From positions 1 to 64,000 of the forward strand of contig CANJQJ010000009.1 in assembly GCA_947476425.1 (NCBI GenBank): a stretch of 64,000 nucleotides of DNA, given 5' to 3'. Within the stretch, counting starts at the first letter, position 1; each line of letters starts with the position of its first letter. Shown piece by piece: positions 50,310 through 52,866 of the stretch. This DNA is from Sphingomonadaceae bacterium (GTDB lineage Bacteria > Pseudomonadota > Alphaproteobacteria > Sphingomonadales > Sphingomonadaceae). The position numbers were made by a program, and so were the translations under genes. A model generated the notes under the pieces. The model saw nothing but the letters and a program-made list of their open reading frames with translations. It ran no database searches and was not told the DNA's origin.

Positions 50310-50804
50310 TCAGGCCTCGTCTACCGGAACCCCGGACACATCCTTTGATGTTCGGATCGTCAGTGAAGTCTTGACGCTGGCGACATTTGGGGCGGGGGTC
50401 AGTTGCGAGGTAAGGAACGACTGGAATGCCTGGAGATCATGCGCGACGATCTTGAGGATGAAGTCGATCTCGCCATTGAGCATATGGCATTCCCGCACTT
50501 CGGGCAGCTTCGCGACATGTTCCTCGAATGCCCTGAGATCGGCTTCGGCCTGGCTTTTGAGGCTGACGAGCGCGAATACCATGATCCCATAGCCAAGCGC
50601 AGCGGCGTTGAGCCGGGCAGTATATCCTTGGATAGCTCCGCCATCTTCAAGCTGCCGCACGCGGCGAAGGCAGGGCGGGGCGGTCAAACCGACTTCTCGC
50701 GCTAGTTCGACGTTGGTTTTGCGCCCATTTTCCTGGAGTGCTGCCAGAATTGCGCGGTCGACGGAATCGAGGAGCTTGGGTGGCGCCAAGGGGTTTTCTT
50801 TCAA
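50310..50804 (-). CDS. Lrp/AsnC family transcriptional regulator
   Basis: A 164-residue feast/famine regulator: N-terminal helix-turn-helix (LDSVDRAILAALQENGR, ELAREVGLTAPPCLRRVRQLED) and C-terminal RAM ligand-sensing domain (ECHMLNGEIDFILKIVAHDL). Amino acid ligand unknown. The start is TTG at 50804, with no good ribosome-binding site and a promoter so close that the leader would be only a few bases; a second TTG five codons in is the alternative. Confidence 0.9.
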   Translation of the reverse strand: MKENPLAPPKLLDSVDRAILAALQENGRKTNVELAREVGLTAPPCLRRVRQLEDGGAIQGYTARLNAAALGYGIMVFALVSLKSQAEADLRAFEEHVAKLPEVRECHMLNGEIDFILKIVAHDLQAFQSFLTSQLTPAPNVASVKTSLTIRTSKDVSGVPVDEA

Positions 50805-50965: not shown

Positions 50966-52723
50966 GTGCGATTTGATGACATGCTGGCAACGTTGCTGGC
51001 GCAACCTCGCGATAGCGACGATGCGCGCGTGGCATTGTGGCGCCAGCTCGTCGATCTGCTCGCCCAGGGCCGTTTCACCGAGGATGAGGCGCTCGGCGAA
51101 AGCGCGCTAGATTGCATCACCGAACTTCGCTCGCGCGTACCCGCCGAAATCCGCGCAGAGACCGCACGCGCGTTTGCAGGATGCCCGGTAAGCGTTGCCG
51201 TCGTCGCGCTGTTCGCGGACGAGCCGGCGCCGATCGTATCGCTCGTGATCGGCCAGGCAGTGCTGGATGCTGACCAGTGGATTGCCCTGCTACCGCGGCT
51301 GACGCCGACGGCGCGGGCGTTGCTGCGCCACCGTCGCGATCTTCCGGCGGATGTGAGGCGTGCGCTCGATAGCTTCGGCCCCAGCGATTTCGTGCTGTCA
51401 TCCGATATCCCGCTCGAGGACGTGGTGGACGAGGAGGAATCGGCTGCGGTCGCCCAGCCCGTTCCTGACGAGACAATCGAAATTCCAATCGCAGCTGTTG
51501 CTGCGGCTGCGTCCGTTCCGTTGAAGACGCCATCGCGTTCCGCGTCGACCGATTTCGATCCTGGCAGCCAGATTCGCGAACTTGTCGAACGGATCGAGGC
51601 CTATCGATCGCATGATTTCATCCGCCCCGCCCCGCCGCGCTCGCCCGAGGCGCCTGCCGATCATGACGACGAGGACGAGCAGGACGAGCATGGCTTCCGC
51701 TTTGAAACCGGCGCTAGCGGAACGATTCGCTGGGTTTCCGGCGTCAAGCGAGGCCAGCTGATCGGCGTTACCATTGCGGTCGCCGGACGGAATGGCGACG
51801 AGGGAGTCGATAATCATGTCGCCGGCGCATTCCGCCAGCGCGCGCCATTTCGCGATGCGCGGATGACGTTGGGGGGCGAAGGCCTCGCGGCGGGCGAATG
51901 GCGGATTTCGGCGGTTCCTGTGTTCGACGATATTGATGGGCACTTCTGCGGCTATCGTGGAAGCGCACGTCGTCCGCGCATCGACGAGATTGCGGCGCCG
52001 CTCGTGCGTGGTGGCTTCCACACCGATGCCGCGTCCGATTCGATGCGCCAGCTGGTCCATGAACTGCGTACGCCGCTCAATGCGATCATCGGCTTTTCGG
52101 AGATGATCGAAGGCCAGCTGCTCGGGCCAGCGTCGTCACGTTATCGCGACAAGGCGTCCGACATCAGCGCGCAGGGACGTCGGCTGCTGACAGCCCTCGA
52201 GGATCTTGATCTGACGGCGCGCCTCGACGTTACCCCCGGGGACGAGATGCTCGTCAATCCCGCCGCGCTTATCGAACGGCTCCATTCCGAATATCTTCCC
52301 TTCGCCGAGGAGCGCGGTTTCAAGCTCAATTTCCGCGTCGCGACCGGCATCGGTGATGTCGCCGCGGCCCCGGTCGCGGTCGAACGGATGTTCGGTCGCC
52401 TGCTGGCGGCTACGCTTGCCGTGGCACAGCGCGGCGAATCGATCGTCGTCGACCTGCGCGTCGATCCCCGTAATGCGCAGCGGCTGCAACTCGCGGTGGC
52501 GCGCCCCGGGATCCTGGCCGGTCGCGACGAACGTACGCTGCTCGATCCAGGCTATAATCCCGATGGCGACTGGCCAGATGCACCCGTGCTCGGCCTCGGC
52601 TTCGCGCTGAGGCTGGTGCGCAATATCGCCATTGCCTGTGGCGGAGCGCTCGATATCGAGACCGAGAAGCTCATCCTCAGGCTGCCGCTGCGCAAGCAGG
52701 TGGCGCGGCGCGGCAAGGCATAA
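50966..52723 (+). CDS. Histidine kinase-like protein with degenerate ATP-binding domain
   Basis: A 585-residue soluble protein. Residues 1-150 are helical, function unknown; 150-240 is a low-complexity acidic linker; 240-345 is PAS-like (GFRFETGASGTIRWVSGV). A HisKA H-box with intact His365 (LVHELRTPLNAIIGFSEMI) follows. In the catalytic domain the N-box NLLxNA reads RLLAAT and the G1 box DxGxG reads RPGILAG, so both the Mg-binding Asn and the adenine-binding Asp are missing; only the G2-like LGLGFALRLVRNIA remains. Autophosphorylation is therefore doubtful. GTG start after CGGAGG. No response regulator is adjacent. Confidence 0.85.
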   Translation: MRFDDMLATLLAQPRDSDDARVALWRQLVDLLAQGRFTEDEALGESALDCITELRSRVPAEIRAETARAFAGCPVSVAVVALFADEPAPIVSLVIGQAVLDADQWIALLPRLTPTARALLRHRRDLPADVRRALDSFGPSDFVLSSDIPLEDVVDEEESAAVAQPVPDETIEIPIAAVAAAASVPLKTPSRSASTDFDPGSQIRELVERIEAYRSHDFIRPAPPRSPEAPADHDDEDEQDEHGFRFETGASGTIRWVSGVKRGQLIGVTIAVAGRNGDEGVDNHVAGAFRQRAPFRDARMTLGGEGLAAGEWRISAVPVFDDIDGHFCGYRGSARRPRIDEIAAPLVRGGFHTDAASDSMRQLVHELRTPLNAIIGFSEMIEGQLLGPASSRYRDKASDISAQGRRLLTALEDLDLTARLDVTPGDEMLVNPAALIERLHSEYLPFAEERGFKLNFRVATGIGDVAAAPVAVERMFGRLLAATLAVAQRGESIVVDLRVDPRNAQRLQLAVARPGILAGRDERTLLDPGYNPDGDWPDAPVLGLGFALRLVRNIAIACGGALDIETEKLILRLPLRKQVARRGKA

Positions 52724-52790: not shown

Positions 52791-52866
52791 GGGCCTGTAG
52801 CTCAATGGTTAGAGCTGGCCGCTCATAACGGCTAGGTTGGGGGTTCGAGTCCCTCCGGGCCCACCA
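52791..52866 (+). tRNA. tRNA with CAT anticodon, probably tRNA-Ile2 (elongator)
   Basis: Acceptor GGGCCTG pairs with CGGGCCC; D arm GCTCAATGGTTAGAGC; anticodon loop CTCATAA; T arm GGGTTCGAGTCCC; encoded CCA. Lacks the initiator features. The short D loop resembles tRNA-Ile2, whose C34 is modified to lysidine, more than elongator tRNA-Met; this choice is tentative. Confidence 0.9.

Follow-up and report, generated by a model that had tools for sequence, protein, structure and literature searches.

Results

The locus and its product

The window analysed here is a stretch of 64,000 nucleotides, and at positions 50966..52723 of its forward strand lies an open reading frame with a GTG start that encodes a protein of 585 amino acids. 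On the evidence of this frame, Pfam and orthologs, we treat the gene as the His-half of a proposed split histidine kinase. Its divergent neighbour on the reverse strand (50310..50804) encodes an Lrp/AsnC regulator, and a tRNA-Met(CAT) gene follows on the forward strand (52791..52866); an Lrp relative was found at 64 of 70 orthologous loci and the tRNA gene at 63, several of the misses having short flanks. The gene that comes after the tRNA in the window encodes a CDF transporter, and at two other loci (L016:3137-4234 and L046:5763-6836; G, C and L numbers are our labels for genomes, contigs and loci) a gene that by eye is polysaccharide deacetylase-like stands between the His-half gene and tRNA-Met.

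The protein opens with an all-helical domain (residues 1-142; 50966..51391) that is kept in the family and has no Pfam match. A variable acidic linker (residues 143-240; 51392..51685), with one helix predicted by AlphaFold2 at residues 200-218, leads to a PAS-like domain (residues ~243-338; 51692..51979), which has no Pfam match, is recognised by motif and fold and can be aligned with the PAS domain of the ATP-half described below. The DHp/HisKA domain (residues 353-420; 52022..52225), identified by Pfam and AlphaFold2, and a degenerate catalytic (CA) domain (residues 421-578; 52226..52699) complete the protein; all these features are on the forward strand. The AlphaFold2 model, produced from six input sequences, has a mean pLDDT of 69.6 and a pTM of 0.39 and shows the helical domain at residues 1-142, a low-confidence linker (pLDDT under 50 at residues 142-203 and 211-240), the PAS-like domain, a DHp hairpin at residues 353-419 and, where structure prediction had been suggested for the catalytic domain, a CA-like fold. 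It agrees with the N-terminal helical domain and linker of a preliminary description of this DNA, which had overlooked the PAS-like domain. The top Foldseek matches in the PDB were LOV-kinase chimeras and other kinases, with RetS and CusS among those to the kinase core.

The H-box of the protein is MRQLVHELRTPLNAIIGFSE, with His365, the predicted phospho-acceptor (codon 52058..52060), inside an intact HELRTP motif, and HisKA matches residues 360-420 in Pfam with E 1.5e-10. The former N-box (residues 478-483) reads RLLAAT, with Arg478 and Ala482 (52397..52411), and the G1 region reads VARPGILAG, with Arg513 (52502..52504) at the position of the G1 Asp; HATPase_c gave no Pfam match at E≤1. Set beside a canonical HisKA sensor kinase, the protein has the H-box His and lacks the ATP boxes, with G2 partly kept, and its sequence suggests that it could not serve as a kinase by itself. 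In NCBIfam there were partial matches far below the cut-offs, the best being the DivJ equivalog (43.9 bits against a cut-off of 1000), and the PdhS equivalog scored 35.2 against 2000.

Conservation across the family

Orthologs were sought in 59 relatives and in 298 genomes of one family, taken to be Sphingomonadaceae; the second search found His-half orthologs in 252 of the 298 at E≤1e-30. The five best named matches to the window protein come from Sphingobium, Sphingomonas and Novosphingobium. In an alignment of 70 orthologs the acceptor His is kept in 68, and both N-box Asn residues and the G1 Asp are missing from every one. The 76 histidine kinases used for comparison (74 picked by H-box pattern, two from the same genome) have an intact H-box by selection, and this does not apply to their N-box and G1 residues. 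At position 478 all 76 have Asn, against Arg in 67 and His in three of the 70 His-halves; position 482 is Asn in 75 of 76 against none, and position 513, the G1 Asp, is Asp in 75 of 76 against none. Position 517 is Gly in all 76 comparison kinases, and there is no Gly among the residues listed there for 69 of the 70 His-halves.

What remains of the catalytic domain is itself conserved. A remnant of the G2 box persists (Gly543 in 66 and Gly545 in 63 of 70), together with newly conserved residues at Arg478 (67), Pro514 (66), Phe546 (69) and Arg549 (68). In a larger set of 94 His-half genes the H-box His is present in 88, the Glu in 88 and the Thr in 83, and none of the 91 genes possessing the N-box region has an N-box Asn. 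The canonical H-box and the lost N-box and G1 residues of the preliminary description are thus borne out well beyond the window. Since the ATP motifs are absent from all 70 aligned orthologs, their loss is an ancient, fixed state of the His-half and not decay.

Several members deserve separate mention. In genus g24 the His-half genes L210 and L212 stop before the CA domain (the L210 match includes an in-frame stop) and the CA region of L217 is scarcely recognisable; all three keep the His, and the ATP-half is present in those genomes. One in-frame TAG is crossed by the His-half match at G287:C13:211460-213088. L031 (which is the ATP-half), L033 and L081 lie outside the 150-row alignment, with the H-box unmatched. 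Homologs L161-L164, from another family of the order and kept out of the family counts, also have an Lrp gene beside them, and their CA domain is degenerate.

A mirror-image relative adjoining gltA

Apart from itself, the best match of the window protein in its own genome (E 1.2e-6) is a 461-aa frame at G000:C14:5481-6848 that adjoins gltA, which we call the ATP-half. RVLKAP replaces HELRTP in this protein, and its N-box (NLIGNA), G1 (DQGKG) and G2 (GSGLGL) are intact; Pfam gives HATPase_c at 1.7e-27 and HisKA below threshold at 0.014, beginning at profile position 13. The same pattern holds in 45 ATP-half genes, in which the H-box His occurs once and the H-box Glu never, the two N-box Asn residues occur in 44 and 45, the G1 Asp in 45 and the three G2 glycines in 45 each. 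The sole His in the acceptor column (L177, genome G024) stands in HSFKPS, without the H-box Glu. Five genes were removed before the counts of 94 and 45 were made because they have Tyr at the place of the His (L220, L222) or are complete kinases (L223-L225), as were L221, L252 and L253, which are second matches of counted genes.

The two halves are homologous across PAS-DHp-CA (hhalign 99.6%, E 8e-24). An Asn or Asp functioning at another place would have spoken against the loss of the ATP motifs; the profile-profile alignment with the ATP-half family places none in the N-box or G1 positions of the His-half. The two genes are unlinked, and the partner went unseen in the preliminary description because only one window was in view. 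Among 45 fetched ATP-half loci, gltA (citrate synthase by Pfam) is present in 39 and, by our own count, a DUF2336-like gene in 28; at L256:4070-7876 and orthologous loci the ATP-half gene is flanked by gltA and the DUF2336 gene. A link between DUF2336 and the N-terminal domain of the His-half was tried by profile comparison, which returned a probability of 0.2%, and we make no such claim. At L257, L260 and L261 a small protein of ~105-111 aa that is Hpt-like by eye is encoded nearby; the two tested had no Pfam match. Pfam found no receiver domain in ten genes around the window gene, nor in those next to the ATP-half in this genome or in three more taken from relatives.

Co-occurrence and joint loss

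Both genes are present in 236 of the 298 genomes and neither in 42, while only the His-half is absent from four and only the ATP-half from 16 (Fisher p 4e-33, ignoring kinship). With completeness set at 90% or more, 277 genomes remain, and the corresponding numbers are 228, 36, two and 11 (p 5e-33, again ignoring kinship). Absence was called at E>1e-30 for the His-half and E>1e-60 for the ATP-half, cut-offs set in visible gaps, and a complete kinase of the same lineage was scored as an ATP-half present (seen in sequence in G007, G012, G064, G075, G079 and G108). Incomplete assemblies are found among the absences: completeness is 71-88% in six of the 42 genomes that lack both genes, 66-87% in five of the 16 that lack only the ATP-half and, among the four that lack only the His-half, 73% in two and 90% in one; the fourth of these is G075, whose top ATP-type match is a complete kinase.

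On an RpoB tree of 30 genomes, the minimum numbers of changes are nine for the ATP-half, nine for the His and eight for the His-half gene. Across eight independent contrasts in the ATP-half the His differs in the same direction in 6.5 on average, in the opposite direction in none and not at all in 1.5, a result that is barely significant by sign test (median p 0.03) in genomes picked with their states known and with G064, whose gene is a complete kinase, scored as ATP-half present. Sister genomes within one genus illustrate the losses: both genes are gone in G076 vs G209 and in G060 vs G142, and the ATP-half and the PAS-DHp region are gone in G225 vs G110. FliG, taken as a patchy and unrelated control, occurs in 30 of the 42 double-absent genomes against 191 of 298 (p 0.30); it does not track the pair, and a motility link was rejected. 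Joint presence and joint loss, a yardstick of our own for such a pair, are seen here with exceptions in G215, genus g6, G075 and genomes of low completeness, and because the genes are mostly kept together and lost together they are probably one kinase split over two proteins.

Fate of the histidine without the ATP-half

We read the His-half in 12 of the 16 genomes that have no ATP-half (G105, G140, G175 and G200 were left out) and in 77 of the 236 with both genes. Without the ATP-half the His is replaced or the PAS-DHp region deleted in five of 12, against loss of the His in one of 77 with an ATP-type gene (Fisher p 1e-4, ignoring kinship). The replacements are Glu in G027 and Asp in G070, G194 and G310, and in G225 a 399-aa His-half (L214, G225:C1:1040421-1041569) is missing HMM positions 217-425, comprising PAS and DHp, in frame. 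The one case among the 77 is G031, in which the His has become Lys and the ATP-half is cut to DHp-CA with one N-box Asn lost. The His is retained without the ATP-half in seven of 12, namely G005, G122, G184 and G233, all of genus g6, together with G022 (67% complete), G215 (100% complete) and G028, where the motif is HRLRDP and the Glu is lost.

Order of evolution

ATP-halves that lack the His group as a single clade of 43 rows (support 98/85) in a tree whose bootstrap has not settled; this tree carries a long-row warning for L251 with L254 and L255 and for L060, L250 and L191, and L237 and L240, which are in the counts of 94 and 45, are absent from it. A search of 13 genomes from the order's other families gave, in each of the 13, a best match with intact H-box His and N-box; six of these matches adjoin a DUF2336-like gene. 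Kinases with HELRTP adjoin gltA in G012 and G108. Five genomes (G007, G012, G064, G079 and G108) combine a His-half that has no N-box with a complete kinase as the closest ATP-type gene, which means that an obligate split does not apply to them. Read from these sequences, loss of ATP binding in the His-half probably came first and left it leaning on a complete kinase; loss of the His from that kinase followed. The first stage, a His-only relative dependent on a complete partner, would persist today in some lineages and, probably, a further family of the order; with the second, the loss of the partner's His, neither gene nor the remaining His would usually survive alone.

Discussion

A proposed split kinase and its alternatives

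We consider it likely that the window gene is the His-half of an obligate split HisKA kinase, in which the ATP-half phosphorylates His365 and the pair serves a response regulator. Acceptor His and ATP motifs lie on two proteins, with one His among 45 ATP-halves as the exception, and we class the pair with split histidine kinases in the sense that, to judge by its sequences, it would work like them. The homologous DHp hairpins of the two halves would pair into a heterodimer, with His365 and the HExxT motif of the His-half as the phospho-acceptor side and the ATP-half (PAS-DHp-CA, full N, G1 and G2 boxes, no His) using the ATP to phosphorylate His365 in trans. The His-half would then phosphorylate a response regulator and, when free, dephosphorylate it; the conserved HExxT suggests, by analogy with CheA3, that the His-half may double as phosphatase of its regulator. 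Its CA domain, having lost the ATP motifs, may now be a conserved domain of other use, and the PAS-like domains of both halves and the helical domain of the His-half may gate pairing. In most Sphingomonadaceae, we lean slightly towards an obligate HisKA-type split kinase derived from two reciprocally dead full-length kinases and built stepwise to mutual dependence.

In ChpT and other HPTransfase proteins, which act in phosphotransfer, the DHp is joined to a CA-like domain that binds no ATP. A stand-alone protein of this sort, with His365 fed by the receiver of some other hybrid kinase or HExxT merely dephosphorylating, and the ATP-half a separate member of the pathway, would share the ChpT design of DHp and degenerate CA, would account for the H, E and T of the H-box (88, 88 and 83 of 94) and would suit genus g6 and G215, which retain the His without the ATP-half. 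It is nevertheless unlikely, since it leaves unexplained why the partner should have given up its His but not the ATP motifs and why five genomes without the ATP-half lost the His or PAS-DHp. At E≤1 PF10090 does not match the window protein; it does match ChpT, which the same genome encodes as a separate gene at G000:C14:38354-38710 (PF10090 E 5e-36), and a role as a replacement for ChpT is ruled out. We give a lower chance still to a regulatory heterodimer without phosphotransfer, in which the two pseudokinases act allosterically by binding one another or further kinases, as partly in RetS-GacS. In the PDB, RetS comes closest by sequence and also stands among the top folds (6dk8, TMt 0.76; 7n0e, a RetS-GacS DHp co-complex, TMt 0.79), and RetS-GacS resembles the proposed pair as a kinase-kinase interaction; such allostery, however, requires neither a conserved His in one partner nor conserved N, G1 and G2 in the other, and a printed alignment shows RetS, unlike the window protein, with one N-box Asn and the G1 Asp still in place. 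An excerpt of PMC5992135 describes RetS as taking phosphate from GacS-P.

The preliminary description had doubted that the protein is an active kinase, and inactivity alone does appear likely; of the two roles it offered, phosphotransfer fits the retained H-box, and a pure scaffold is doubtful because it leaves unexplained both the retention of the His with the ATP motifs gone and the tendency of the His to disappear where the mirror protein has been lost. Its more particular suggestion, a DivL-type scaffold that senses a phosphorylated regulator with no catalysis by any party, is improbable. Like DivL the window protein is a PAS-DHp-CA pseudokinase, probably alphaproteobacterial, with a retained CA fold and, at Arg478, Pro514, Phe546 and Arg549, new conserved residues, but DivL, in the portion of PMC4211667 we cite, carries a Tyr where the His would be and retains its N, G1, F and G2 boxes, the opposite of a protein with His365 and lost CA motifs, so DivL-type logic fits poorly. 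A decaying pseudogene or chance divergence in one lineage would match a few eroded members (G225, G027) and can hardly be entertained for a gene present in 252 of 298 genomes at E≤1e-30, with an Lrp relative at 64 of 70 loci and with its His and new CA residues conserved.

Relation to known systems

The nearest precedent is CheA3-CheA4 of Rhodobacter sphaeroides, which the excerpted PMC3591291 describes as a split kinase of which neither half autophosphorylates alone and the acceptor half is also a phosphatase. Both cases put ATP use and the acceptor on two proteins, here as judged from motifs. According to the same excerpt CheA3-CheA4 is of the CheA type and lacks whole domains (P1; P3 and P4), whereas the present pair is of the HisKA type and consists of two full-length homologs, altered in the H-box on one side and in N/G1 on the other, unlinked and widespread in one family. 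Hik36 and Hik43 of Synechocystis, shown to interact by bacterial two-hybrid in the part of PMC7656254 consulted, are likewise a split kinase encoded by two distant genes, where ours is a proposed pair; in that text, however, the two genes are the parts of a split CheA homolog, and one of them encodes an Hpt domain. Amin et al. (PMC3591291, in excerpt) drew from SMART that 1.7% of HisKA proteins lack HATPase, carry a phosphatase motif and could be of split type, and modelling indicates that kinase splitting can permit ultrasensitive or bistable switching.

Among the matches listed from open-licence PMC papers, none concerned this HisKA pair of reciprocally inactivated full-length kinases. The split kinases in the literature we found are of the CheA chemotaxis type, and the present work puts forward a concrete HisKA pair in most of 298 genomes, with intermediates and natural losses that make the mutual dependence of two enzymes testable. 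If correct, it would name a signalling node in a group for which an excerpt of PMC2877005 reports DivJ-PleC-DivK as degenerate or lost. On a practical level, users should be aware that profile searches label each half a histidine kinase, even though neither, on its own, looks competent. Kinases with Tyr at the place of the His also exist alongside the His-half family: L220 and L222, from G075 and G079, are DivL-like by this Tyr alone, with YELRTP and an intact N-box.
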